Shown: positions 821-16,365 of the stretch, in pieces | Numbering within the stretch: position 1 is the stretch's first letter | How the letters are laid out: each line of letters begins with the position of its first letter | From: a virus | Reading direction: 5' to 3' (one strand) | IMG/VR virus record: IMGVR_UViG_3300037010_000229 | Location: 1-28,289 of that record | DNA length: 28,289 nt | Made by a program: the position numbers and the translations under genes | Notes under the pieces: generated by a model | The model's database searches: none | Told to the model about the DNA's origin: nothing | What the model saw: the letters and a program-made list of their open reading frames with translations, nothing else

Positions 821-2278
821 TTATGCAAGGGATACCTCATATGCAGTCAAGGCTCTATCATAAACACGGAAGTTTGAAATATGACCATTGAAGCTATTTA
901 ATGCATATGTCTCAGTAGGATTATATGAACCAATTCGTACGGTTGGAAAACTACTATTACACGTTTGTGTAATTCTACCATCAGTATCTGCCTTGAACCC
1001 TGTTTGTACACCATTCTTATAGATGTAATGACCAGCATTACTAACCACTTGTGCTACTCTATATGTAGTTCTTGCTGATACTGACGAAAACCCAATGTCA
1101 CTTGACTCTGTTTCGCTTGATAAAGTTGATTTTCCCCCCTGGGTTGAAAAAACTAAACCAATATGATTCCACCCTGAAATATACAACCCCCAAACCCATT
1201 GGTCGCCCCCAGTAACGCCAAACGAATCAACATCACATAAAACACTAATAACACCATTTGTCTCAATGTTTGGAATATTACCAGTTCTAGTAAAATTTAA
1301 TATATCAACAGCTCTTGTAACAGTATTAGAAGTAGTTGGAATATATGATGTGGCAAAAGACCATACTTCTAATTGAGCACCAAATACATATATACCAGAT
1401 GAACCATCACCTGCATATGAACCTGTACCTAATCTTGTTGTCTGCAAATAAAATGCAGTAGATACTTTGGCAGCAGAAGTTGTTGTGGCAGATACCCTAA
1501 ACCAACCATTTGCTAATGGGGTAATGGTAGCCGCTACTGTAGATGAAGATACAGGCGTAGCCATTACAGCAACCAAATCAAAATCTGCTGTTATTGGAGA
1601 TACTTTGTTAGTTGAATCCCATGAATTGAGCCGAAACTTAGTAGATTCCGCTGCCTTAACAAAACAACTAAAGGTTAAATTAGAAGAATTGACTGATACC
1701 GTTTGATAGATATAATGAAGATTTGTTGAACTATCTTCTACAATTTTATCAGCATTATTAGTGCCATACGGATCAGTTGTGGCAGTAGTATTAGCTGACA
1801 CTGTAACATTTGTCTGAGACCATGCTGAATTATCCATTTGTTCACTATACATTAATGAATTTGTGCTAGAACTTTCATTCAGGTACCCTTCTTTTTCAAA
1901 TCGTGGAGTATCTACCCCAGCAACTTGTAAAATACCATATCTATCAATATATGTAGCAGTAGATGCTCTTGTAAATGTAACATTGCCAACCCCAGCCTTC
2001 ATCGCTAATGTATTTTTCAAAGGCAGATCCAACAATGGTGCATTAATATTACCGATAGCATGTAATAAATCTGAATTATTTGCTTTTAAGTTATCTGCAT
2101 TAGTGACAAATTCAGTTGTTGCTAACTGAGTTGTGTTTGTACCAGGTGTTGCAGTTGGTGCCATAACGGCATTCGTAAAATTAGTTACACCCGTTGAAGC
2201 ATCTGTAGTTAATACTTTTGTCGTACCATTATATATCTCTAAGTTTCCATTAGAGTTACTTCCAATACTAATACTCAT
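821..2278 (-). CDS. Tail fibre protein with LamG-like C-terminal domain (485 aa)
   Basis: A tail-fibre or adhesin protein, presumably at a fibre tip where it contacts the host surface. The first 60 residues are a short stalk ending in the TTQLATTEFV motif that recurs in all the fibres here. Then comes a conserved block with TFTRASTATYIDRYGILQV and PRFEKEGYLNE, typical of phage fibre/spike proteins. The C-terminal ~150 residues end in ISNFRVYDRALTAYEVSLA, a pattern typical of concanavalin A/LamG-like lectin folds. The protein at 4429-7074 has the same C-terminal arrangement after a much longer repeat shaft, so the two are paralogues with different shafts. GGAGG lies shortly upstream of the ATG. 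Receptor specificity cannot be read from the sequence. Confidence 0.9.
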   Translation of the reverse strand: MSISIGSNSNGNLEIYNGTTKVLTTDASTGVTNFTNAVMAPTATPGTNTTQLATTEFVTNADNLKANNSDLLHAIGNINAPLLDLPLKNTLAMKAGVGNVTFTRASTATYIDRYGILQVAGVDTPRFEKEGYLNESSSTNSLMYSEQMDNSAWSQTNVTVSANTTATTDPYGTNNADKIVEDSSTNLHYIYQTVSVNSSNLTFSCFVKAAESTKFRLNSWDSTNKVSPITADFDLVAVMATPVSSSTVAATITPLANGWFRVSATTTSAAKVSTAFYLQTTRLGTGSYAGDGSSGIYVFGAQLEVWSFATSYIPTTSNTVTRAVDILNFTRTGNIPNIETNGVISVLCDVDSFGVTGGDQWVWGLYISGWNHIGLVFSTQGGKSTLSSETESSDIGFSSVSARTTYRVAQVVSNAGHYIYKNGVQTGFKADTDGRITQTCNSSFPTVRIGSYNPTETYALNSFNGHISNFRVYDRALTAYEVSLA

Positions 2279-2305
2279 TTAGTTAATTCCTCCAATTTGT
2301 AATTC

Positions 2306-2329
2306 AATGTTTTATACACTATAAACATT
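2306..2329 (-). other. Small intergenic hairpin between fibre genes
   Basis: AATGTTT (2306-2312) and AAACATT (2323-2329) can form a 7-bp stem with a 10-base loop in the short gap between the 87-residue gene and the 485-residue fibre gene. No T-run follows on the minus strand, so a processing or stability element is more likely than a terminator. It may also be chance in AT-rich DNA. Confidence 0.3.
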
Positions 2330-2333
2330 TGTT

Positions 2334-2597
2334 TCATTTATAACCACCAATTATAGTCCATATAGAATCATTCTGTAAAGTAACCATTACGCCTGGTGCA
2401 AAATTAATAGTAGGTCCTATACTCATAGAATTTTGACCTGTATAGATTGTATAGTTATCTGTTATTGTTCGACTGTTAGTATAGAACATTGTACCCTTAT
2501 CTACTTTACCGGATTCTAGATTTTCAATTCGAACTCGATGAGACTTGAATTCAGATCCAATGGTTGTACCAAGATCTGCCATTATTTTATTAGACAT
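2334..2597 (-). CDS. Small fibre-associated structural protein (87 aa)
   Basis: An 87-residue protein with a short helical or coiled N-terminus (residues about 1-35, including HRVRIENLESGKVDKG). A beta-rich C-terminus follows, with GPTINFAPGVMVTLQND and WTIIGGY. This type of C-terminal beta-strand motif is frequent at the ends of phage tail-fibre and spike subunits, so a small structural or trimerisation subunit is inferred. It is the first gene after a perfect late promoter (2664-2671), which supports late expression as a virion component. GGAG lies 11 bases before the ATG. The 485-residue fibre gene follows 55 bases downstream. Confidence 0.75.
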   Translation of the reverse strand: MSNKIMADLGTTIGSEFKSHRVRIENLESGKVDKGTMFYTNSRTITDNYTIYTGQNSMSIGPTINFAPGVMVTLQNDSIWTIIGGYK

Positions 2598-2663
2598 ATA
2601 TTGTTTATCTCCATAAACTCACCTTATTTTATATACACTCGGCTAAGGCTTACCATTTTGATT

Positions 2664-2671
2664 TATTTATA
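2664..2671 (-). promoter_or_regulatory. T4-type late promoter
   Basis: The minus strand reads TATAAATA exactly, followed by AATC, 67 bases upstream of the 2597 start. This matches the -10 box recognised by the T4 gp55/gp33/gp45 late transcription system. The leader contains CCTTA and TAAGG, which could form a weak 5-bp stem. Confidence 0.75.
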
Positions 2672-2681
2672 TAATGATATA

Positions 2682-3101
2682 TTAAGAATTACTCAACGAT
2701 ACATACTTTGGTAATTGTGCTACGAAATCATCAATATTTACAATATGTGATTTTAACAATTCATACACTTTAGCCCATAATGTATCTTGCCATGCTAATA
2801 ATGAATCTGCTTCTGCTTTCCATATATTACTGTTTATAAATTGTGCTACTTCTGCAAAATTGCGGTAATCATATTGATGTGCAGTTTGATCAAGTAAATT
2901 ATAAACTGCCATCTTAGCTTGTTGTATAAGTTGCTCTTGTGTAGGACCATCAGCAGGTTCAGGTACATTACCAGCAGCAATCCATTTTAGAATTGCTTCT
3001 CGATCACTATTTCCTGGCGCATCTGGAACTGATACACTACCATTTAATAACCAACCATTAGGTTGTAATTTAACTGATTGAACTTCAACTATATTAAACA
3101 T
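2682..3101 (-). CDS. Putative tail fibre assembly/accessory protein (139 aa)
   Basis: The N-terminal half contains GWLLNGSVSVPD and REAILKWIAAGNVPEPADG. This resembles the small proteins with a 'W...GN.PEPA' segment often found beside phage tail-fibre genes. The C-terminal half is alpha-helical, with QYDYRNFAEVAQF, WKAEADSLLAWQDTLW and VYELL. That pattern (aromatic turn, EA..LLAW.D..W) is typical of DUF4376-like and fibre-assembly accessory proteins. It lies just downstream of the 419-residue fibre gene (15-base gap). A chaperone or fibre-accessory role is inferred from pattern and position; no catalytic motif is visible. Confidence 0.7.
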   Translation of the reverse strand: MFNIVEVQSVKLQPNGWLLNGSVSVPDAPGNSDREAILKWIAAGNVPEPADGPTQEQLIQQAKMAVYNLLDQTAHQYDYRNFAEVAQFINSNIWKAEADSLLAWQDTLWAKVYELLKSHIVNIDDFVAQLPKYVSLSNS

Positions 3102-3116
3102 TATATAAAATCCTTA

Positions 3117-4376
3117 TTAAAGTTCTGCTGAAAGCATGAAGTAGTCACCAGATCCCATATTAAAATAGGCATCTGTGGTAGCAGCCGTTGCATCCCAAAG
3201 TACTCTAGCCGTATTTATTGTTACCACATCTATCTTAAGTTTTTCGGCATTGCCATAGGAAACATTTGATAAACTAGATGTTACACTAGGTGTAGTTCTC
3301 ATTGGAACATAGTTTAAGTAACAAGTTGCATACGCTCCTTGGGCATATGCGCCAAAGTCACCATGTAAACCAGTAAATTTGTTTAAGTATCTTGCACATG
3401 CAGAAATTTCATCTCCAAAGTCACCGTCATAAGGATACCATCCATTAGTAGCAACTGAACCATCTTCAATCTTTACTTGAGCAATATCAAATGTTCCCGA
3501 TTGTTGTCCTAAACTGGCTGTGTCTGAATTGTAGTTACTACCTGCGTCAAACCAAAACAACATTGCAGTATAAGTCGTTTGTACCCCATCTGAACCTAAT
3601 GTTTTACCAGAAATAGATGGTATAGTTACAGTAATAGATTTTTTCTGCCAAGATGTTGTTAAAGAGACTTGTTGTGCACCAATACCAGTAACAGTTGAAC
3701 TTGGACTGCCACCAGTACCAAAGTTTTGCCAAAATTCAATAGCAATATTCTTACTAGCATCTGCTTTGGCCCAGAAGGATAACGTAACAGTTTTATTGGC
3801 CATTAAATTCACATTTTCAATATTCTGTCGTTTATAAGCATAATTACCAGATCCAGATGAAGTAGTTACCTTTGTTCTACTATAGAACATAGCATTGAAT
3901 AACGCACGTTCTGTATCACCACATGTCTGTTGAGATGCAGTCTTGGTTGTGCCATTATTGGCATTAATCCACCTATTATCAGAACCATACCCAGATGGGT
4001 CTTGACTTGTACCATAATCCCATTTATCAAAGTTACCATTGATTAGATAATTTCTGCGTCCACCTTTTTCACCAATAACAAATCCAGTTGTAGCGATTTG
4101 AGTTGTGTTTGTACCTGATGGTGCTGTTGGTGCAAGTGGAGTTTTAAGTAGGTTTACCCCAGATGGTGAAAAAGACATTACAGGTACAGTATTGCAAGTA
4201 GCACCAAATACACCATCAGCAATGTGGTATAAACCGGTATCCGGAGCCCCATCATTTTGGAACACCAACCCTGGTGCTGATGCAGTACCTTCAGGAATGA
4301 ATACCTGCCCGGTGAAAAATGGTGAATTAATATTCGCTTTTATAGAATTTATTTTATCTAGTGAATATTCAATCAT
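3117..4376 (-). CDS. Tail fibre protein with carbohydrate-binding-like domain (419 aa)
   Basis: The fibre starts MIEYSLDKINSIKANINS, the same N-terminus as the partial gene at 1-425. One long shaft module follows (FTGQVFIPEGTASAPG through TTQIATTGFV, about residues 20-100). Then comes a domain starting RRNYLINGNFDKW at about residue 106, with LSFWAKADASKNIAIEFW inside it, a pattern seen in carbohydrate-binding-like phage tail domains. The last part (ISACARYLNKF onward) is a further beta-rich segment. The role is inferred to be host adhesion. The ATG overlaps the stop of an 18-codon remnant ORF (ATGA), and the remnant supplies AGGAG 7 bases upstream. Confidence 0.9.
   Translation of the reverse strand: MIEYSLDKINSIKANINSPFFTGQVFIPEGTASAPGLVFQNDGAPDTGLYHIADGVFGATCNTVPVMSFSPSGVNLLKTPLAPTAPSGTNTTQIATTGFVIGEKGGRRNYLINGNFDKWDYGTSQDPSGYGSDNRWINANNGTTKTASQQTCGDTERALFNAMFYSRTKVTTSSGSGNYAYKRQNIENVNLMANKTVTLSFWAKADASKNIAIEFWQNFGTGGSPSSTVTGIGAQQVSLTTSWQKKSITVTIPSISGKTLGSDGVQTTYTAMLFWFDAGSNYNSDTASLGQQSGTFDIAQVKIEDGSVATNGWYPYDGDFGDEISACARYLNKFTGLHGDFGAYAQGAYATCYLNYVPMRTTPSVTSSLSNVSYGNAEKLKIDVVTINTARVLWDATAATTDAYFNMGSGDYFMLSAEL
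3691..3803. repeat. 113-bp exact direct repeat, copy 2
   Basis: Identical to positions 1-113. It lies inside the carbohydrate-binding-like domain of the 419-residue fibre gene and marks recent sequence exchange between the two fibre paralogues. Confidence 0.9.
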
Positions 4377-4429
4377 GCGAATTCTCCTATTTTTTGTTGT
4401 TTAAGACATTCTTTAGTAATAAAACACAT
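4373..4429 (-). pseudogene. 18-codon remnant of the 120-aa gene, now a coupling mini-ORF
   Basis: This ORF encodes MCFITKECLKQQKIGEFA. Its last 14 residues align with the C-terminus of the 120-residue protein at 422-784 (TKEYFRPKKIGEFAL). Both sit in the same place, immediately before a fibre gene that starts with ATGA overlapping their stop. The mini-ORF's ATG overlaps the stop of the 881-residue fibre gene (TGATG). It therefore links three cistrons without a gap and still carries the AGGAG used by the next fibre gene. I read it as the decayed second copy of a duplicated gene, retained because it provides translational coupling. Whether the peptide is made is unknown. Confidence 0.65.
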
Positions 4430-7074
4430 CATGCTAGAGCTACCTCATACGCAGTCAATGCTCTATCATAAATTCTAAAGTTAGCAAAGTGTCCACATGC
4501 ACCACCGCCCCCAATAGTAATTGATGTACTAGGTGTAGTTGCGTTTCCATTACCAGATGATCCACTGATAATAAGTGCACCATTCATATATGCTTTAGTA
4601 CTTCCAGTTTTATCATGCGATAATGCATATCGTGTCATTACATTTAGGTTAGTTGGTTTTATTAAAAGTTGTCCGCCGTGATATTTGTCTGCACCATATT
4701 GTAATGTCATGCTCTGGTCAGATGTCTTATAGAATGCCCTATACGCAGTAGACTCACCATTAAATGAAAATGCTTGAAAGTAACTGTCCTGACTGCCACC
4801 AAGTGCAGCAAAATCAAACAACAATGTTTCCTCTGAAAATCTATCAGTTACGCCATTTGAGTTGCCAATAGAATCCACAGTAAGACTATCTGCTGCTCTC
4901 GTAACAGTGGCAGAAGTAGTAGGAATATACGATGTAGGGAATGGTGATGTTTCTAATTGTGCTCCAAATACAAATAAACCTGATGAACCATCACCTGTAT
5001 ATGAATTACCATTACGTGCTAATTGTAAATAAAAATTTGTAGATACTTTGGCAGCAGAAGTTGTTGTGGCAGATACCCTGAACCAACCATTTGCTAATGA
5101 AGTAATTGTAGCATATACGGTTGATGAGTTAGCTGGTGCTGCAGTAACCGCAGATAAATCAAAATCCGCAATAATTGGATTACTTGGTGTAGATGATTCA
5201 TATGAGTTAAGTCTAAACTTAGTACACTCTGCTGCTTTTACAAAACAACTAAAAGTTAATGTGGCTGAGTTAACTGATACAGTTTGGTAGACAAGATGAG
5301 TACTATTAGATTTATCCTCTACTAGTTTATCTGCTAAATTTGTACCATATGGATCAACAGTATCTGTTGTATTTGCAGTTACTGTTACATCAGATTGAGA
5401 CCAAACTGCATTATCTGCTTGTTCACTATATGTTAATAAATTTGTGCTTGACCCTTCATTGAGGTGTCCTTGTTTCTCAAACCGCGGAACATCTGATCCA
5501 ACTACTTGTAGTATGCCGTATCTATCAATATAAGTAGCAGAAGATGATCTTGTGAATGTAGCACCACCACCACCAGATCGCATAGCTAATGAATTTTTTA
5601 GTGGAATATCTAATAACGGGTTATGTATATTACCAATAGCCATTAACAAATCTGAATTATTGGCCTTTAGGTTATCTGCAGTTGTAACAAACTCAGTGGT
5701 TGCAATCTGTGTTGTTTTTGTTCCAGCAGATGCAGTTGGTGCAGTTGGTGTACCGGTTAATGCTGGTGAATCCAATGGTGCTTTTAGATCATCAGCTTTG
5801 GTGACAAATTCAGTAGTAGCCAATTGAGTTGTTTTTGTCCCTGGATCTGCTGTTGGTGCCTTTGGTGTACCAGTAAACGATGGTGAATCCAACGGTGCTT
5901 TTAAATTGTCTGCAGTTGTGACAAATTCTGTCGTGGCTAATTGGGTTGTTTTTGTTCCAGCAGATGCAGTTGGCGCTGTTGGTGTACCAAGTAGGTTTAC
6001 TCCATTCGGTGTAAATGCCATAATCTCGGTACCATTACAGGTTGCACCAAAGTTACCGTTGGAAATATGGTATAACCCCGTATCAGCCGAGTCATCATTT
6101 TGGAACACCAACCCTGGCGCTGATGCAGTACCTTCAGGAATGAATACCTGACCGGTGAACGCTGGTGATGCCAATGGTGCTTTTAAATTGTCTGCCTTTG
6201 TTACAAACTCAGTTGTTGCTAACTGTGTTGTACTGGTACCAGCATCAGCTGTAGGAGCCTTAGGGGTACCAGTAAACGATGGTGAATCCAATGGCGCCTT
6301 TAAGTTATCTGCATTTGTAACAAACTCAGTTGTTGCTACTTGTGTTGTTTTTGTACCGGCAGATGCTGTTGGTGCTGTTGGTGTACCAAGTAAGTTTACC
6401 CCATTTGGCGTAAATGCCATGACTTCTGTTCCATTGCAGGTTGCGCCGAAGTTACCATTAGAAATATGGTATAAACCAGTATCAGCTGAGTCATCATTTT
6501 GGAACACCAAACCAGGAGCACTATTAGTTCCTTCAGGAATAAATACTTGTCCTGTAAATGATGGCGATGCAATGTTAGCCTTTAGGTTATCTGCAGTTGT
6601 AACAAACTCAGTGGTTGCAATCTGTGTTGTTTTTGTTCCAGCAGATGCAGTTGGTGCAGTTGGTGTACCGGTTAATGCTGGTGAATCCAATGGAGCCTTT
6701 TTGTCCAATTGTGACTGAATGTTATTATTAGCAGTTGTAACAAATTCAGTTGTAGCAATCTGGGTTGTTTTTGTACCGGCATCAGCTGTAGGAGCCTTAG
6801 GGGTACCAGTAAATGATGGTGAATCCACAGGTGCTTTTAAATTGTCGGCCTTTGTTACAAACTCAGTGGTTGCCAATTGAGTTGTACTTGTACCAGCGTC
6901 TGCAGTGGTTGCTTTAGGCGTACCAGTAAACGATGGTGAATCTAATGGTGCCTTTGATTTAATTGCATTTGCGACAAAGGCTGTATTTGCAATTAAAGTA
7001 GAATTATCACCATCTGGAGCAGTAGCAACTGTTGTACCAGTATTTGACCGCATAAATGAAAGTTTTCTTCCCAT
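4429..7074 (-). CDS. Long modular tail fibre protein with LamG-like tip (881 aa)
   Basis: This is the largest fibre in the window. After a short N-terminus (MGRKLSFMRSNTGTTV) comes a shaft of six short modules (APLDSPSFTGTPKAPTA to TTQLATTEFVTKADNLK, about 39 residues each). Two longer modules containing FTGQVFIPEG, TGLYHISNGNFGATCNGTE and TPNGVNLLG are interspersed. The region from about residue 470 repeats the plan of the 485-residue fibre: TFTRSSSATYIDRYGILQV, PRFEKQGHLNE, then a lectin-like domain ending FANFRIYDRALTAYEVALA. The module number looks prone to change because some modules are exact DNA repeats. A late-expressed, receptor-binding fibre is inferred. The start lies 3 bases after the stop of the 96-residue gene. 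Confidence 0.92.
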   Translation of the reverse strand: MGRKLSFMRSNTGTTVATAPDGDNSTLIANTAFVANAIKSKAPLDSPSFTGTPKATTADAGTSTTQLATTEFVTKADNLKAPVDSPSFTGTPKAPTADAGTKTTQIATTEFVTTANNNIQSQLDKKAPLDSPALTGTPTAPTASAGTKTTQIATTEFVTTADNLKANIASPSFTGQVFIPEGTNSAPGLVFQNDDSADTGLYHISNGNFGATCNGTEVMAFTPNGVNLLGTPTAPTASAGTKTTQVATTEFVTNADNLKAPLDSPSFTGTPKAPTADAGTSTTQLATTEFVTKADNLKAPLASPAFTGQVFIPEGTASAPGLVFQNDDSADTGLYHISNGNFGATCNGTEIMAFTPNGVNLLGTPTAPTASAGTKTTQLATTEFVTTADNLKAPLDSPSFTGTPKAPTADPGTKTTQLATTEFVTKADDLKAPLDSPALTGTPTAPTASAGTKTTQIATTEFVTTADNLKANNSDLLMAIGNIHNPLLDIPLKNSLAMRSGGGGATFTRSSSATYIDRYGILQVVGSDVPRFEKQGHLNEGSSTNLLTYSEQADNAVWSQSDVTVTANTTDTVDPYGTNLADKLVEDKSNSTHLVYQTVSVNSATLTFSCFVKAAECTKFRLNSYESSTPSNPIIADFDLSAVTAAPANSSTVYATITSLANGWFRVSATTTSAAKVSTNFYLQLARNGNSYTGDGSSGLFVFGAQLETSPFPTSYIPTTSATVTRAADSLTVDSIGNSNGVTDRFSEETLLFDFAALGGSQDSYFQAFSFNGESTAYRAFYKTSDQSMTLQYGADKYHGGQLLIKPTNLNVMTRYALSHDKTGSTKAYMNGALIISGSSGNGNATTPSTSITIGGGGACGHFANFRIYDRALTAYEVALA
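5664..5778. repeat. 115-bp exact direct repeat inside fibre gene, copy 1
   Basis: Positions 5664-5778 are identical to 6579-6693, 915 bases away in the same reading frame. Each covers one short shaft module. Recombination between them would delete or add 305 codons without breaking the frame. Confidence 0.9.
6579..6693. repeat. 115-bp exact direct repeat inside fibre gene, copy 2
   Basis: Second exact copy of 5664-5778. The surrounding short modules are more diverged copies of the same unit, some shared with the gene at 7370-8710. Confidence 0.9.
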
Positions 7075-7077
7075 AGT

Positions 7078-7368
7078 TTACACCTGAATTCCATAAGCTC
7101 TAAATGTAACACCAGCTGCTGAAGCATTTACAACGATATCTTCACCAGAAACGGCAATTAAACCAGTACGTTCTAATACATCATTTGCTGCTATAGTTGT
7201 TCCATATTCTATCTTATCACCACCAATAGAAATATTGACCGTTACAGAACTTGAATTTGTATTACATACATTGATTGTCATAGTAGCAGTAGCACCTGAA
7301 GCAATAGTACATAATGTTGTATCTTTATTTGCATCTGGTGTTGCACTTCCAAACTTTTTTCCAGCCAT
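7078..7368 (-). CDS. Small beta-rich structural protein (96 aa)
   Basis: A 96-residue protein starting MAGKKFGSATPDANKDTTL. Its alternating beta pattern (ATATMTINVCNTNSSSVTVNI, then IEYGTTIAANDVLERTGLIAV) looks like a small immunoglobulin-like or beta-sandwich phage virion protein. It sits between two modular fibre genes with gaps of 1 and 3 bases, so it is co-translated with them. A tail-fibre accessory or linker subunit is inferred. It has no membrane segment. Confidence 0.75.
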   Translation of the reverse strand: MAGKKFGSATPDANKDTTLCTIASGATATMTINVCNTNSSSVTVNISIGGDKIEYGTTIAANDVLERTGLIAVSGEDIVVNASAAGVTFRAYGIQV

Positions 7369-7369
7369 T

Positions 7370-8710
7370 TTATTGTCCCATTAAAAAGTAAAGTTTAAAA
7401 TCTAAATTATTGATAGCGGTTGTCACATACTCCGTCGTGGCCACCTGTGTATTATTTGTACCTGATGCCGCGGTGGGTGCTGTTGGTACCCCAAGTAAGT
7501 TTGTGCCAGATGGGGTAAATGCCATGACTTCTGTTCCATTACATGTAACCCCAATATTACCATTAGAAATATGGTATAAACCAGTATCAGCAGAGTCATC
7601 ATTTTGAAATGTTAGTCCAGGTGCAGACGCTGTACCTTCAGGAATAAATACTTGCCCGGTAAATGATGGCGATGCGACATTGGCTTTTAAATTGCCCGCT
7701 TTGGTAACAAACTCTGTTGTTGCTAACTGAGTTGTACTAGTACCTGCGTCTGCTGTTGGTGCCTTGGGGGTTCCAGTAAACGATGGTGAATCCAATGGCG
7801 CCTTTGAACTATTTACATTATTAACGAACTCTGTTGTAGCAATTTGTGTATTATTTGTACCTGATGCAGCGGTGGGTGCTGTTGGAGTTCCTGTCAATGC
7901 TGGAGAATCTAAAGGCGCTTTTGAGTTATTCGCTTTGGTAACAAACTCAGTTGTTGCCAATTGGGTTGTACTAGTACCTGCGTCTGCTGTTGGTGCCTTG
8001 GGGGTTCCAGTAAACGATGGCGAATCTAAAGGTGCTTTTAAGTTATCTGCCTTTGTTACAAACTCAGTTGTTGCTAACTGAGTTGTACTGGTACCAGCTG
8101 AAGCAGTGGTTGCTGTTGGTACCCCAAGTAAGTTTACACCATTAGGGGTAAACGCAGCAATCTCCGTGCCATTGCATGTAACACCAATATTACCATTTGA
8201 AATATGGTATAAACCAGTGTCAGATGAGTCATCATTTTGAAACACCAACCCTGGTGCAGACACTGTACCTTCAGGAATAAACACCTGTCCAGTAAATGAC
8301 GGTGACGCAATGTTAGCCTTTGAGTTATTCGCTTTGGTTACAAACTCAGTAGTAGCAATTTGAGTTGTGCTGGTACCAGCATCAGCTGTAGGAGCCTTAG
8401 GGGTACCAGTAAACGATGGTGAATCCAAAGGTGCCTTTGAATTGTTTACATTATTAACGAACTCAGTTGTAGCAATTTGAGTTGTGCTTGTACCAGTTGC
8501 TGCCGTTGGTGCTGTTGGTGTACCAGTGAATGCTGGTGATGCTAATGTTGCCTTGGTAGGATCAACAATCTGCTTAACGGTACCATCAGTATGTTTAACA
8601 TATGCCACAGCATCAGCGGTATTAATTGCAAGCTCATTAGTCATAAGACTATCAGCTGATGGCACCTTCCCAGCCGTATCATTATGCTTAGGTAAAATAG
8701 GGTTAGCCAT
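7370..8710 (-). CDS. Modular tail fibre shaft protein (446 aa)
   Basis: The N-terminus (PSADSLMTNELAINTADAVA, then YVKHTDGTVKQI) resembles the N-terminal fold found in many phage fibres, where 'gELAiNt.D..lyvK..dG' is a recurring pattern. The rest is five short modules (SPxFTGTPxAPTA...ATTEFV) and two long modules (FTGQVFIPEG...GLYHISNGNIGVTCNGTE...). It ends shortly after the last module (ATTEYVTTAINNLDFKLYFLMGQ), so unlike its neighbours it has no receptor-binding domain. It may be a proximal shaft subunit to which a distal protein attaches. The start codon overlaps the stop of the gene at 8710-9873 by one base (TAATG). Confidence 0.88.
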   Translation of the reverse strand: MANPILPKHNDTAGKVPSADSLMTNELAINTADAVAYVKHTDGTVKQIVDPTKATLASPAFTGTPTAPTAATGTSTTQIATTEFVNNVNNSKAPLDSPSFTGTPKAPTADAGTSTTQIATTEFVTKANNSKANIASPSFTGQVFIPEGTVSAPGLVFQNDDSSDTGLYHISNGNIGVTCNGTEIAAFTPNGVNLLGVPTATTASAGTSTTQLATTEFVTKADNLKAPLDSPSFTGTPKAPTADAGTSTTQLATTEFVTKANNSKAPLDSPALTGTPTAPTAASGTNNTQIATTEFVNNVNSSKAPLDSPSFTGTPKAPTADAGTSTTQLATTEFVTKAGNLKANVASPSFTGQVFIPEGTASAPGLTFQNDDSADTGLYHISNGNIGVTCNGTEVMAFTPSGTNLLGVPTAPTAASGTNNTQVATTEYVTTAINNLDFKLYFLMGQ

Positions 8711-9873
8711 TAAAATATGCCACCATCAATTGTACTAGAATTATTATAATAGTCTGTACCTGCTGTCGCAGCTACTAATGTTACCCCTGATTTTTTAAAT
8801 ATGGTTCCATCACTTGCTGAACTTAAATCTGTACCGGTGCCACCATGAACCATATCAACAGCTGTACCATTCCATGTACCTTTTGTGATTGTACCAAGTG
8901 TAACAATTGATGTTTGTCCTGCATATGTACTTGCAATATCAACACCTGAACTACTAACAGTAATTCTATCTTTTGTTCCTACAACTGACATTGTGTTACC
9001 AGATCTACTTAGACCATCACCAGCAACAGTTGATCCAACACCACTAAAGTTGATCCATGTTACATCAGTTTGTGTAAGTGTGCCACCTGGATCAGCTGTA
9101 CAAACAAACCCTAAATCTGCATTTGTATTACCTTCTTCAACAAAGCAATATGCATTTACTAACTCATTCCATGTATCAGCATCTAAAGAGCGGGTCCATG
9201 AACCATCTGATACAACATAGATACCATTTTGATTTTTTGTAGACTGATCTTTAACAAGTACACGATCACCAACAGCCAAATCAATACCATCAATGGTCAT
9301 TTTACCACTTAATTGTGATATATTTGATGTTGTTGCTACTCTAACTGCTTGTTTAGGATCTAACCCTTGGACTGCGCTGTCAACATAGTTTTTGTTTGCT
9401 GCATCCATTCCATTTACTGGATCTGCTAGATTAGTGATTCGGTTATCGTTTAAATTAATTGGTCCATTTGGCGCAGCAAATGCATTTAATTTTGTTGCGT
9501 TAACTGTTGACTGAAAGTCACTAATCTTTGATGCCGTTAAAGTTGGGATGTCATCTGCCGTTAAAGTTGTACCATTGGTCACTAGACCATTTGCATTAAC
9601 TGTTACTTTTGGATATGTACCAGCTGTTACACCTGTTGTGGCAAGGGTTAATTTAATACCATCAGATAACTTACCTGAACCGGTTACATCCCCTGTAATC
9701 GACAATGTGTCTGATTTTTTAGCAAAAAGACCAGATCCACCAATGGCAACAACTGCATTACCTGTTGCGCCAACAAAAAGTGTATCACTTTTTTCTGAAT
9801 ATGCCAACTCACCAACCAACAAACTAGATGGTGTTGCGGTTGTTTGTGAACGTTTAATTTGAATACTTGCCAT
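8710..9873 (-). CDS. Tail fibre protein with Mtd-like N-terminus (387 aa)
   Basis: The first ~45 residues (IQIKRSQTTATPSSLLVGEL then AYSEKSDTLFVG) match the pattern of the N-terminal domain of the phage major tropism determinant and many T4-like fibres, a likely virion-attachment or trimerisation region. The middle carries NRITNLADPVNGMDAANKNY and a conserved fibre block with VGDRVLVKDQSTKNQNGIYVV and GSWTRSLDADTW. The C-terminus ends SSTIDGGIF, sharing a DGGxF/Y ending with the two small proteins encoded just upstream. A proximal fibre or fibre-connector role is inferred. The ATG overlaps the stop of the 57-residue gene (TAATG). Confidence 0.88.
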   Translation of the reverse strand: MASIQIKRSQTTATPSSLLVGELAYSEKSDTLFVGATGNAVVAIGGSGLFAKKSDTLSITGDVTGSGKLSDGIKLTLATTGVTAGTYPKVTVNANGLVTNGTTLTADDIPTLTASKISDFQSTVNATKLNAFAAPNGPINLNDNRITNLADPVNGMDAANKNYVDSAVQGLDPKQAVRVATTSNISQLSGKMTIDGIDLAVGDRVLVKDQSTKNQNGIYVVSDGSWTRSLDADTWNELVNAYCFVEEGNTNADLGFVCTADPGGTLTQTDVTWINFSGVGSTVAGDGLSRSGNTMSVVGTKDRITVSSSGVDIASTYAGQTSIVTLGTITKGTWNGTAVDMVHGGTGTDLSSASDGTIFKKSGVTLVAATAGTDYYNNSSTIDGGIF

Positions 9874-12039: not shown

Positions 12040-13125
12040 TTACTTACCGATGACATCAAAGATTTGTTTTATTGCAACATCTTTACCAATATTTGTCAAT
12101 CTTTTATTTTGTCCATATATGATTGTTTGAGCTGCTTGGTTTGCACTTCTTTTCATATCTGGATCATCAAAAACAGATCCAGCGATTCTACCAATTTGTG
12201 GAGCTGCTTCTTGTTTTGCCAATGCCCCAAAATCTGTTGGTTGACCATTCATTATATTTCTGACTGCAGTTTTTGCAATGTCTTTTGCTGCACTATAAAT
12301 TCTTGGATCCATAGAATCGCCAACTTCTTTAAAGAATCCTGATACACCATCTTTAGCACTGGTGAATGTGTCCTTAACATCATCTAAGAACGATTTATCC
12401 GTATTAGTATTGTCCAAATTCCAGTTATTTTCATCGTCCCATGGGTCTTGATCCTTCAATGCCTTACCAATTAGACCCCCGAAGCTATCTAATTTAAACC
12501 CATCGCTAAACAATCCACTTGGACCATCACTACCAGGCCAGGCAGATGCACCTACCATTGAACCCAATGCATCTCCGCCACCAGCATTTGCAGACACATA
12601 GTCCTCAACATTGAATGTAACGGTGATTTCGTGTATTGTATCTCTATCCCTATAACTAAATGCACCATATGAAATACTTTCAGGATATGCCTTGAACATA
12701 ACCCAGGTATTAATCAATGTACCAGTTTCATCAAATTGCTGTAATGTAATATCATCTGATGCAATATTGGAAAAGAAGTTCACTGCCTGATTACTATGTC
12801 CATCTGGTCTATTATAGATAATAGAATTCATATTAGTGCCAGCCATCCAACTTTCAAAATAGATTAGATTATCAGTTGGTAAAATCAATCCACCAATATA
12901 ATTTGTGGATAGTGTTACTGATAATGTTGTAATATCAGTTGCATAAGGTGTTTTAAGTGTGCGACCAATTACATAACTATTATCTTGTCTAGTTTGAATT
13001 GTTCTTGATGGTAATGTAACAGAACTTGCGCCTAAAACTGGGCCAGTACGACCAATGGTTAAAAGGTATCTATTTGATTTAACAAATGAGCCAGTGTTTG
13101 CAATAAATGAATCAATATCAAACAT
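12040..13125 (-). CDS. Tail tube-fold baseplate protein, gp54/gp48-like (361 aa)
   Basis: The N-terminal ~180 residues follow the tail-tube (gp19) fold pattern of T4-like phages. NRYLLTIGRTG opens the barrel, TDITTLSVTLSTNY aligns with the tube beta-hairpin, LIYFESWMAG with the short helix, and WVMFKAYPESISYG then HEITVTFNVEDYV with the closing strands. A C-terminal extension of about 180 residues is mostly helical and ends near RLTNIGKDVAIKQIFDVIGK. T4 gp54 (tail-tube initiator) and gp48 are tube-fold proteins of this size (320-364 residues), so I assign it to that group without choosing between them. Its ATG overlaps the stop of gp4 by one base. Late expression is expected from the promoter at 14328-14335. 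Confidence 0.75.
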   Translation of the reverse strand: MFDIDSFIANTGSFVKSNRYLLTIGRTGPVLGASSVTLPSRTIQTRQDNSYVIGRTLKTPYATDITTLSVTLSTNYIGGLILPTDNLIYFESWMAGTNMNSIIYNRPDGHSNQAVNFFSNIASDDITLQQFDETGTLINTWVMFKAYPESISYGAFSYRDRDTIHEITVTFNVEDYVSANAGGGDALGSMVGASAWPGSDGPSGLFSDGFKLDSFGGLIGKALKDQDPWDDENNWNLDNTNTDKSFLDDVKDTFTSAKDGVSGFFKEVGDSMDPRIYSAAKDIAKTAVRNIMNGQPTDFGALAKQEAAPQIGRIAGSVFDDPDMKRSANQAAQTIIYGQNKRLTNIGKDVAIKQIFDVIGK

Positions 13126-13610
13126 TATTTTTCCTTTACTTTGCCAAATAGTTCATTTTCAGTTAGAACTATGAATTCTATTCCATTGTTATTTGCAAAT
13201 TCTTTTGCTGCTTGCCATTTAGATTGATTTTTAATATATGTTTCAATTGCACGTTGGTAATTCATCATTGATTTTTCTGTTTTTCTTTTTGGTTGTTTTG
13301 GTGGCAATGTTTCTACATAGGGTTTAATTTCCATCAATAGAGTTTTTGTTCCACCATCAACAGTCTTAAATGTTGCCAACAAGTCTACATGATATCTGTG
13401 CATTTTATTATCAATTGGATAATGATATGGAATTACTATGTCCTCTGAATTCCATGATATAACAGATTCATTCAGATCAAGAAATATAAATGCACGTTTT
13501 TCCCATGATGATCTATATACTATATCAGGCATACCGTTGGCTAATCGTTTCCCAATATACTTTTCAGGATATCTTGGAATATAACGACCTTGTTTGAAAT
13601 GTCTAGCCAT
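13125..13610 (-). CDS. 4: Head completion protein gp4 (PD-(D/E)XK nuclease fold)
   Basis: The 161-residue protein matches T4 gp4, the head-completion protein, in length and motifs: KYIGKRL, VYRSSWEKRAFIFLD, SVISWNSEDIVIPY, HRYHVDLLATF and LLMEIKPY. Asp76 with Glu94-x-Lys96 gives the expected PD-(D/E)XK nuclease signature, with Glu37 in SSWEKR upstream. In T4 gp4 works with gp50 to finish packaged heads before tail joining. The gene overlaps its upstream neighbour by 8 bases and the next gene by 1 base, so the three form one late operon. Confidence 0.9.
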   Translation of the reverse strand: MARHFKQGRYIPRYPEKYIGKRLANGMPDIVYRSSWEKRAFIFLDLNESVISWNSEDIVIPYHYPIDNKMHRYHVDLLATFKTVDGGTKTLLMEIKPYVETLPPKQPKRKTEKSMMNYQRAIETYIKNQSKWQAAKEFANNNGIEFIVLTENELFGKVKEK

Positions 13611-14166
13611 TACGATGCATTTCCCCTAATGGTAAGAATAATATATCTTCCCACATATCATAAGGTACCTGTTTTGGTGGTACTATGAATTGAGAAAATA
13701 GATATCTTTTAATCATTGGACCAAAATACTTTGTATTGATTATTGTTTTTGCAATACTATAGTCCAATAGAATACGTTTCTTATCATCTTTACCTGTAAG
13801 TTTTAATGTATCCAAAAATGCTAAGAAAATCTTCTGTCTTACAGGTGGTGGTACAAAGTGTAAATTCAACCCAAGGAATCCGTCATCATATGAATCCAAT
13901 ACAATCACCAATGGAAATGCATCCCATTGTGGTAAAACATCTTTATACTTTGGATCATAATGATAAAACAACATCATACCAGGTAATACTCTTTTTACCT
14001 TTGGTAGATTTTTTAATAGTTTTAAACGCATTGGTATAGCATTTTGTGTGCCGGCTTTATTCACGAATGCACGAGTAAACGAAAGTCTATCATTATCAGA
14101 CTTAAATGTTCTACCCAATTTTGCTTTTTTGATTTTATCAATTAGTTTAGGAACATCAATGTCCAT
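13603..14166 (-). CDS. Conserved T4-like virion/assembly protein (187 aa)
   Basis: A 187-residue basic protein with LPGMMLFYHYDPKYKDVLPQ, FPLVIVLDSYDDGFLGLNLH and PPPVRQKIFLAFLDTL. I recognise this as a pattern seen in proteins encoded beside gp4 in T4-like phages, but cannot assign a T4 gene number with confidence. It starts with MDIDVPKLIDKIKKAKLG. As first gene of a late unit with gp4 and the tube-fold protein, a role in head or baseplate assembly is likely. The ATG is about 155 bases downstream of the predicted late transcript start, behind a structured leader. Confidence 0.75.
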   Translation of the reverse strand: MDIDVPKLIDKIKKAKLGRTFKSDNDRLSFTRAFVNKAGTQNAIPMRLKLLKNLPKVKRVLPGMMLFYHYDPKYKDVLPQWDAFPLVIVLDSYDDGFLGLNLHFVPPPVRQKIFLAFLDTLKLTGKDDKKRILLDYSIAKTIINTKYFGPMIKRYLFSQFIVPPKQVPYDMWEDILFLPLGEMHRNG

Positions 14167-14489: not shown

Positions 14490-15077
14490 TTATTGCATTG
14501 CTGCTTTTAGTGCATCCCATAGTTTCTCAAAGTTATAACCTTTTGGCATACCAGAAGCAAATGCATCTACATCGTCATCAAGTACTGCAGCTCGCATTTT
14601 ACTGGCACTCATACCAGAAACATCATCAGAATCTGGATCGCGTTCACCCGCTGATTTAACAATGATTGAATCAAATTTATATAAACCATGTCTTGCTTCT
14701 GTACCATTGTATTTTTTGACCAATGTTTCAAATTCAGGTACACGGTCAGATCCAACAACTAGAATAATATGTTTAACACCTTCTTTATATAAATCAACTA
14801 AAACATCGAGAAGTGTTTTTGCGTCAGATTCGATGACATGACTACCATAAGGTGCTAATACTTCTCTAGCAAATTTTAATTTTGTATTATAATCCAATGG
14901 ATTCTTTTTTGGATCCTGTGAATGACTAAGGTACAATCTATAGTCTGATGGATTTGCACGTTTTAATTCTTCCATCAATTTAAGATGTCCAATTGTTGGT
15001 GGATTTAATCTACCAAATGAAACGGCAACAGTTGATTCTGCTGCTTCTAGTAAAAATTCATTCATTGTTTTCATCAT
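14490..15077 (-). CDS. Nucleotidylyltransferase with capsid-targeting-like N-terminus (195 aa)
   Basis: A cytidylyl/nicotinamide-nucleotide adenylyltransferase-fold enzyme. It has the (H/T)xGH signature in FGRLNPPTIGHLKLMEEL and the second signature ISxSxxR-like in VSGMSASKMRAAV. IILVVGSDRVPEF lies between them. NadM/NadR-type enzymes with this layout make NAD from NMN and ATP; the actual substrate is not certain. The first residues (MMKTMNEFLLEAAES) resemble the capsid-targeting peptide of T4 internal proteins. Cleavage would follow Glu11, with L-x-E just before the cut. The second Met (15074) is an alternative start and gives MKTMNEFLLEA. It lies 22 bases after another gene with the same type of N-terminus. 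A strong terminator follows. Confidence 0.85.
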   Translation of the reverse strand: MMKTMNEFLLEAAESTVAVSFGRLNPPTIGHLKLMEELKRANPSDYRLYLSHSQDPKKNPLDYNTKLKFAREVLAPYGSHVIESDAKTLLDVLVDLYKEGVKHIILVVGSDRVPEFETLVKKYNGTEARHGLYKFDSIIVKSAGERDPDSDDVSGMSASKMRAAVLDDDVDAFASGMPKGYNFEKLWDALKAAMQ

Positions 15078-15099
15078 GTGTTCTCTCTAATGTATATGT

Positions 15100-16365
15100 T
15101 TATTTCTTTTCCCACCCCTTAAGGATGTTTGTCGAAAAGTTATTTGCCGAAAATTCTAGTCTATCAACCAGTTTAATAATTTTACCTGACTTATCTGAAA
15201 TAACAAATCCTTCACCTGAAGCTGGTACAACAAATCCATCTTTAGTTTTAACGAATGTTTTTGTTAGATTGATTTTGTTCAATTGTTCAATGATTTTTAT
15301 TTTGGCATTTACGATTGCGACCATCATATCAAAGAACATAATCAAACCTTCTTTATGTGTATTATCAAAGAAAGATAATATCATATCACGTTTGTCTATT
15401 TGTGTTTGTTTACCTTTATCGGTACTTCTTGCATCGATTTCTTTTTGATATTTCTGATGGATATATTCAATCAATCCATCAACGTGTGCTTTAGAATTTG
15501 TAATAAACTGACCGTTGCGAATATGTGTATTATTATATGTCTCAATGATCTTAATCAATTCAGGATGGTTTGCTAATTCTGATAGAATTGATGAACCGAT
15601 TTTTTGAAATAGTTTACCAGCAACACTTAATAGTGCGGTGACATCCTTTGTATCAGATTCTGACATTGTTGCAATACCAGACAGATCAGGAATTTCTGGA
15701 CCAATTGCCCATACATTATCAGACTTTAATAGGTCCTTTGTTGTTACATCAAATGATGCCTTTAATGTTTCAATAGTAGAACCAGTATATCTAGTATGAA
15801 ACACGATACCAAGTTGACTTTTACCAATGATTTGACCAAGATGACTTGTTTGTTCAACTGCATACACCAATGTATTTGGATGCATAACCCAGCATTGTTT
15901 ACCATCAATCAATTCAGATGCTAGGTCTGTTTTTGTATGTAATAAATCACCTTGATATATTTGACCTTGTGGGATTACTTCTGGTAACCATCTCAAGCAT
16001 GCTTTAAACTTTTGGTTTAGTTCTTGACCAAGGTCTGTATCTGCATCAATTTCAGCTGGGGTTGTATAATATTTTGGATTTTTATTGAATACTGACTTTT
16101 TAGCAACAAAGAATGTTTTACCATCTGTTGGTAGATATCCAGCAACAATTGACGGAGCACCATCTATCTTAATTGTAATTTGTTGAATGGATGTTCTAGC
16201 ATTACCATGACCAGCTAACATATCCCTGGCATCTCGTAATGTATTGATAACATCACGAATTGAATTGACACCATGATACAAGAATTCTTCTAAATGACTC
16301 AGGTGCTTTAATTTCTCAACACTTGTTTCTGCTTCATTAAGAAAATATTGTTTGAATGATAACAT
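15100..16365 (-). CDS. Ligase-type nucleotidyltransferase with capsid-targeting-like N-terminus (421 aa)
   Basis: Motifs of the covalent nucleotidyltransferase (DNA/RNA ligase and capping enzyme) superfamily appear in order. Motif I is K66-IDG in TIKIDGAPSIVAG. A FFVAKKSVF strand follows at 85-93 and YQGDLL at 137-142 (motif IIIa-like). GEGFVI at 384-389 is motif IV-like and IIKLVDR, with Lys398, is motif V-like. A long mostly helical insert separates the last motifs from the rest. I infer an enzyme that becomes adenylylated on Lys66; the substrate (RNA, DNA or other) is unknown. The N-terminus MLSFKQYFLNEAETS has L-N-E before Ala12, matching a T4-type prohead protease site. It is close to the nucleotidylyltransferase gene and probably co-transcribed. 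Confidence 0.75.
   Translation of the reverse strand: MLSFKQYFLNEAETSVEKLKHLSHLEEFLYHGVNSIRDVINTLRDARDMLAGHGNARTSIQQITIKIDGAPSIVAGYLPTDGKTFFVAKKSVFNKNPKYYTTPAEIDADTDLGQELNQKFKACLRWLPEVIPQGQIYQGDLLHTKTDLASELIDGKQCWVMHPNTLVYAVEQTSHLGQIIGKSQLGIVFHTRYTGSTIETLKASFDVTTKDLLKSDNVWAIGPEIPDLSGIATMSESDTKDVTALLSVAGKLFQKIGSSILSELANHPELIKIIETYNNTHIRNGQFITNSKAHVDGLIEYIHQKYQKEIDARSTDKGKQTQIDKRDMILSFFDNTHKEGLIMFFDMMVAIVNAKIKIIEQLNKINLTKTFVKTKDGFVVPASGEGFVISDKSGKIIKLVDRLEFSANNFSTNILKGWEKK

Follow-up and report, generated by a model that had tools for sequence, protein, structure and literature searches.

The adjacent genes for a nucleotidyltransferase (NT) and a DUF6267 protein of an uncultured T4-like phage, in a 28,289-base IMG/VR virus record (the window, meaning the whole stretch of DNA analysed), probably encode internal proteins that are packaged in the phage head and delivered to the next host with the DNA. 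We put the probability of this reading at about 0.7, a figure that excludes the chemistry of the two enzymes. Delivery of both into the host is probable because both bear a T4-type capsid-targeting peptide (the tag) and because tagged relatives of NT occur in virions. The capsid-targeted internal proteins of T4, the presence of NT in virions and the idea of its injection are already known. What is new here is to explain this by the tag, to predict DUF6267 as cargo with an RNA-ligase fold, and to recognise the tag on many other proteins of environmental phages. No link between the tag and these enzymes, and no mention of DUF6267 by name, was found in the literature searched, with most subscription papers and all preprints beyond reach.

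Two adjacent enzymes among T4-type genes

NT and DUF6267 are flanked in the window by T4-type genes, which encode a gp2-like DNA end protector, a gp4-like head closure protein, a tail-tube-like protein and a DNA primase. DUF6267 lies upstream and is transcribed first, and NT second. The features are as follows.

13125..13610, minus strand: gp4-like head closure protein (phrog_218, 8e-47; PF08722)
13603..14166, minus strand: gp2-like DNA end protector (phrog_429, 3.7e-35)
14490..15077, minus strand: NT, HxGH-superfamily adenylyl/cytidylyltransferase, 195 aa; likely 194 aa from the second ATG, 15074
14592..14609, minus strand: NT C-terminal motif SASKMR, residues 157-162 (S157, K160 and R162 invariant in 18 aligned sequences)
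14985..15014, minus strand: NT catalytic motif GRLNPPTIGH, residues 22-31 (conserved in 18 aligned sequences)
15042-15044, minus strand: Ala codon before which gp21 is predicted to cut NT
15045..15074, minus strand: putative capsid-targeting peptide of NT, MKTMNEFLLE (from profile score, the L005 start and likeness to T4 IPIII)
15100..16365, minus strand: DUF6267 protein, 421 aa, predicted ligase-superfamily covalent nucleotidyltransferase
15160..15174, minus strand: DUF6267 motif V, KLVDR, residues 398-402 (K398 and R402 invariant in 29 aligned sequences)
15202..15213, minus strand: DUF6267 motif IV, EGFV, residues 385-388 (E385, G386 and V388 invariant in the 29)
15277..15660, minus strand: DUF6267 helical insert before motif IV, residues 236-363 (AF2 secondary structure)
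16159..16170, minus strand: DUF6267 motif I, KIDG, K66-G69 (K66, D68 and G69 invariant in the 29; K66 is the predicted adenylylated lysine)
16333..16365, minus strand: putative capsid-targeting peptide of DUF6267, MLSFKQYFLNE (from profile score), with the predicted gp21 cut before Ala

Positions 821-9873 of the window encode several repeat-built tail-fibre-like proteins, with repeats such as KAPLDSPSFTGTPKAPTADAGTSTTQLATTEFV. A search for a larger contig of the same phage via its helicase gene yielded only the 7.4-kb contig L005/L112.

Both proteins begin with a T4-type peptide

As translated, NT begins MMKTMNEFLLEAAES and DUF6267 begins MLSFKQYFLNEAETS. The preliminary description placed L-x-E at residues 9-11, followed by Ala, in both proteins. 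This is so for both as translated, but for NT the cleavage E is likely residue 10. In the nearest relative, L005 (94% identity in DUF6267 and 89% in NT), TAT stands at the site of the window's first ATG and NT starts at the second, with MKTLNEFLLEA. The window NT therefore most likely starts at 15074, which puts its cleavage E at residue 10, in register with T4 IPIII and IPII. Seven of the 11 residues of the resulting peptide, MKTMNEFLLEA, are common to IPIII and IPII (MKTYQEFIAEA, NC_000866); the T4 record agrees with the IPIII peptide given in the preliminary description. The first ten residues of IPIII suffice for capsid targeting, with residues 4 and 7 mapped to targeting and residues 8 and 10 to processing (PMC9026906). 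Apart from small deviations, both window peptides follow this layout, with targeting positions 4 and 7 ahead of L/I-x-E at 8-10. Neither is an exact fit to the strict pattern M-x(2,3)-[FY]-x-x-[FY]-[LI]-x-E: NT has Met at position 4 (Leu in L005), a weaker match than an aromatic residue, and DUF6267 has one residue more before L-x-E. The first 16 residues of the DUF6267 AF2 model, the tag region, have pLDDT <50.

To assess chance similarity, a profile was built from tagged proteins that include neither NT nor DUF6267, and 14,358 internal ATGs were scored against it. The DUF6267 peptide scored 17.8 bits, a value that none of the internal ATGs reached, and the NT peptide scored 7.7 bits (8 of 14,358 as high); the two rank first and second among the 423 candidate starts in the window. 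Across 85 related viral loci, the strict pattern was found at 78 of 1,431 near-start ATGs and at 5 of 8,094 internal ATGs, about 90 times more commonly at starts, in counts that are not independent since the contigs are related. All five internal matches belong to one small-gene family. When the pattern was relaxed to 1-3 residues before the first aromatic, the only T4 matches at gene starts were IPII and IPIII. A 76-residue T4 product (NC_000866, 114210-114437; start MLLEFKQFLYEA), whose ATG lies inside a longer reading frame, also matches the tag pattern. We take this product to be UvsW.1, which is not known to be an internal protein.

Tagged NT orthologues are found in virions

NT orthologues have been detected by mass spectrometry in purified virions of four cyanophages, and all four carry the tag. 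We read it as MKKFSAFLNEA in S-SM1 (T4-GC190, PMC3037559), MRFRQFIIEA in S-SZBM1 (S-SZBM1_140, PMC9146016), MKSFLQFLKEA in S-SCSM1 (ORF91, PMC9602691) and MKNFSSFLTEA in S-CREM2 (ORF154, PMC10665884). Several papers place a cytidylyltransferase/NMNAT in cyanophage virions and leave unsettled by what route it enters and whether it is a contaminant, and the tag offers both a mechanism and a test. PMC9602691 and PMC10665884 name contamination of the CsCl preparation as a possibility and already propose injection, so the injected NT is not the novelty that the preliminary description took it to be. The available text of the cyanophage papers on virion NT contains no mention of the tag, and that of the virion papers no N-terminal peptide demonstrating cleavage. 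At starts in S-CREM2, the pattern matches only NT and a SAM hydrolase, both on the virion list (PMC10665884). The SAM hydrolase (OR473000, 3837-5081) starts MKDFDSFLEE, the same tag; this anti-restriction enzyme would be active upon entry.

DUF6267 presents a different picture in three of these phages. The untagged DUF6267 proteins of S-SZBM1 (141), S-CREM2 (gp87) and S-SCSM1 (257) are absent from the published list or not labelled as virion proteins. By the preliminary description, orthologues without the peptide would count against packaging; some DUF6267 proteins do lack it, but they are those unreported in virions. The idea that NT and DUF6267 are always both tagged was dropped, as the cyanophage DUF6267 is untagged. 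S-SCSM1 ORF90, a virion protein adjoining NT, was considered as a DUF6267 protein and rejected, since the profile gave no match and the real DUF6267 is encoded elsewhere, untagged. In S-SZBM1 (OL473597, 122311-123125), the adjacent tagged proteins 191 and 192 adjoin a virion structural gene. Both are nevertheless absent from the 30-protein virion list (PMC9146016). A tagged protein may therefore go undetected, and little weight can be placed on DUF6267 not having been detected. The literature search found no virion proteome of the window phage or of any phage with a tagged DUF6267.

The tag appears to be a detachable prefix

NT and DUF6267 adjoin in many T4-like phages, in many of which they carry the tag, and they also occur as fusions (phrog_455 covers both; the two are fused in L083-L085). 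In phage C48C1, the tag or a close variant is present on DUF6267, the next gene, NT, the following gene and others nearby. The annotated start of the C48C1 cytidyltransferase (OQ984149, 63448-63514) is too late and omits the tag, MIKNFSQYLLEEE. The DUF6267 tag is kept in C48C1, in DLP6 and in about half of the non-redundant aligned relatives. DUF6267 of the marine cyanophage type is without the tag and has its N-terminus directly after the predicted cut site: the tagged protein of L074 would read AKNTHMEHLED after the cut, and the untagged S-SZBM1 protein starts M-AKNTHLEHLED (MAKNTHLEHLED). Judged from these alignments, the tag acts like a detachable prefix.

A gp21-type prohead protease is encoded in all six complete relatives as well as in T4. 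The preliminary description had looked to the rest of the genome for such a protease; every complete relative has one, but the 28-kb window, a fragment, gave no match, and the controls were likewise without a match. We propose that the 10-11 residue N-terminal peptide would draw NT and DUF6267 into the prohead core, where the gp21-type protease would remove it after L-x-E. The trimmed proteins would stay beside the DNA in the head and accompany it into the next cell. Tag-directed prohead entry is well supported for NT through its orthologues and likely for DUF6267 in the window lineage. Packaging of both window proteins is likely, that of DUF6267 being what we infer from its tag, and cleavage after L-x-E and injection of both would follow by analogy with T4. 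Together, the IPIII register, the enrichment at starts, the tag on unrelated proteins, gp21 in relatives and the tagged virion NTs bear out the capsid-targeting reading of the preliminary description.

Other proteins carrying the tag

A DNA pattern for M-K-[ST]-F-K-x-F-x-x-E-A gave at least 82 matches in viral contigs, and among the matches listed 75 of 82 open an ORF of at least 50 residues. Cargo among the matches listed includes DUF6267, NT, adenylate kinase, a DPBB/RlpA-like domain and glucosaminidase, and probably a HAD phosphatase that scores below its family cut-off; most of the other tagged proteins among them are without a Pfam family. Examples from uncultured phages are the tagged adenylate kinase (L211:1977-2546), the probable HAD phosphatase (L248:10421-11020), the DPBB/RlpA-like protein (L179:2400-2801) and the glucosaminidase (L195:6253-7065). 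The tag predicts head cargo of uncultured T4-like phages from sequence.

Longer NT relatives contain an AAA_33/zeta-type kinase domain, some with an added DUF5824 or sigma-70 region 4 domain, and NT relatives have HAD-like neighbours. Seven NT fusions (L055, L074, L075, L076, L079, L080 and L086) have tag-like internal sites ending [LI]-x-E after the NT domain, nine being observed against 0.65 expected from shuffling. Some of these sites sit just before the P-loop kinase. Such fusions are possibly polyproteins cut by the prohead protease.

A broader and more speculative picture is that T4-like phages widely load head enzymes by one swappable ten-residue tag that can be read from sequence alone. 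The window lineage might then deliver a cofactor adenylyltransferase and an RNA-ligase-fold enzyme, together a repair set that acts before phage gene expression. Kinases, a probable phosphatase and a SAM hydrolase would be added by the cargo of relatives, and fused cargo may be cut between domains by the prohead protease.

The predicted fold of DUF6267 resembles RNA ligases

The DUF6267 protein matches PF19782 at 282.1 bits (cut-off 27). The covalent nucleotidyltransferase motifs KxDG, EGxV and the motif V lysine are present across the 29 aligned sequences. Its AF2 model (pLDDT 86) was compared with known structures in VIA-align, where ranks 1-46 are all DNA or RNA ligases (Z 8.2 to 5.6) and unrelated structures begin at Z 5.3. 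The best match is the Naegleria RNA ligase (Z 8.2, rmsd 3.8, 185 residues), followed by T4 Rnl1 and Rnl2, which gives moderate support, from a predicted structure, for the nucleotidyltransferase fold. Foldseek with the same model returned no match below E 0.001, and a sequence-profile search of the PDB no credible relative. The ligase assignment therefore rests on the motifs and VIA-align. The ligase motifs noted in the preliminary description are indeed there, and the ligase-like predicted fold extends them.

In L059 (1325-3653), DUF6267 is split exactly at motif I (KWDG|SPA) by a split intein, making it a fractured gene. Each half of the intein is encoded by its own gene, and an HNH-like reading frame lies between the two. 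Inteins favour active sites, and motif I is a typical insertion position.

The role that we tentatively favour for DUF6267 is that of an ATP-dependent RNA-ligase-like enzyme repairing RNA as infection begins, such as tRNA that host anticodon nucleases have cleaved. If delivered from the head, an RNA-ligase-fold enzyme would counter, ahead of phage transcription, host defences that cut RNA or deplete cofactors, in a period beyond the reach of expressed anti-defence genes. PADLOC gave no match for NT or DUF6267, and neither enzyme was found in the accessible part of a paper on polyvalent proteins (PMC5512222).

The substrate of NT and alternative explanations

The substrate of NT admits two readings. 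NT matches PF01467 at 22.2 bits (cut-off 21) and phrog_3041 at 4e-54, and its (H/T)xGH and S-x-S-x-x-R motifs are invariant or nearly so, placing it among the HxGH nucleotidyltransferases. Its AF2 model (pLDDT 89) has the PPAT/NadD/NadM fold (Z 12.5-14.2). In host cells NT may be an NMNAT-like adenylyltransferase that restores NAD or a similar cofactor drained by host defences, a proposal we tentatively favour; the weak NMNAT matches in NCBIfam point this way, as do relatives in which NT is joined to a P-loop kinase, resembling NadR (PMC9503650). It is about as conceivable that NT instead makes another adenylylated cofactor (PPAT-like, in the CoA pathway) or acts on RNA, the pair forming an RNA-repair set, which is compatible with packaging. 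PPAT/CoaD structures (Z 14.2) match ahead of NadD and NadM (Z 12.5-13.2), and the best sequence-profile match in the PDB is UPF0348 MJ0951, a weak one (E 0.0024). NadV, reported alongside every phage NadM (PMC9503650), was sought in the six complete relatives, of which DLP6 alone yielded it. The AAA_33 kinase domains and HAD-like neighbours of relatives also favour this second reading. The best matches of NT to NMNAT equivalogs in NCBIfam reach 15-18 bits against cut-offs of 112-164. The NAD-synthesis enzyme of the preliminary description could thus not be upheld as such, since PPAT and NMNAT fit about equally and no equivalog cut-off was reached.

Other explanations concern the packaging itself. 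It is unlikely that NT alone is packaged, with DUF6267 working in the cytoplasm and its N-terminal segment being a docking peptide or a remnant: virion presence is documented for NT alone and the cyanophage DUF6267 exists untagged, but the window DUF6267 peptide outscores that of NT on the tag profile, and the DUF6267 tag persists in about half of the non-redundant aligned relatives as well as in C48C1 and DLP6. We give similarly little credence to both proteins entering the prohead as core or scaffold and idling in the new host. The tag itself has core affinity, IPIII mutants show head assembly defects and a morphogenetic role has been proposed for IPIII (PMC9026906). However, all aligned relatives retain the catalytic motifs of the two enzymes, and the untagged DUF6267 is kept in phages where its presence in virions is unreported and therefore has a job outside assembly. 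Very improbable is that the peptides are chance amphipathic N-termini and NT a contaminant. Contamination is named as a possibility in PMC9602691 and PMC10665884, but the tag is enriched at starts and nearly absent at internal ATGs, the pattern recovers T4 IPII and IPIII, and four independent virion studies detected NT.

Comparison with known systems

Head packaging and delivery of NT and DUF6267, the reading we prefer, has its closest model in T4 IPII, IPIII and Alt, which share the length of the N-terminal peptide, its register and its L/I-x-E end; the complete relatives also share the gp21-type protease. T4 cargo consists of small basic proteins or an ADP-ribosyltransferase, whereas two nucleotidyltransferase-type enzymes make up the cargo here. 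The cyanophage NTs (T4-GC190 of S-SM1, S-SZBM1_140, S-SCSM1 ORF91 and S-CREM2 ORF154) are related enzymes with the same tag, detected in virions and suggested to be injected, but their DUF6267 partner is untagged, in contrast to that of the window. DUF6267 shares the KxDG, EGxV and K motifs and the predicted nucleotidyltransferase core with the Naegleria RNA ligase, T4 Rnl1 and T4 Rnl2. It differs from them in its helical insert (236-363), in having 10-17% identity in the aligned core and in being without a recognisable C-terminal RNA-binding domain. NAD salvage by phage NadM/NadR also employs an HxGH nucleotidyltransferase, and NT relatives with a P-loop kinase resemble NadR (PMC9503650), but NT lies below the equivalog cut-offs and NadV is missing in five of the six complete relatives.
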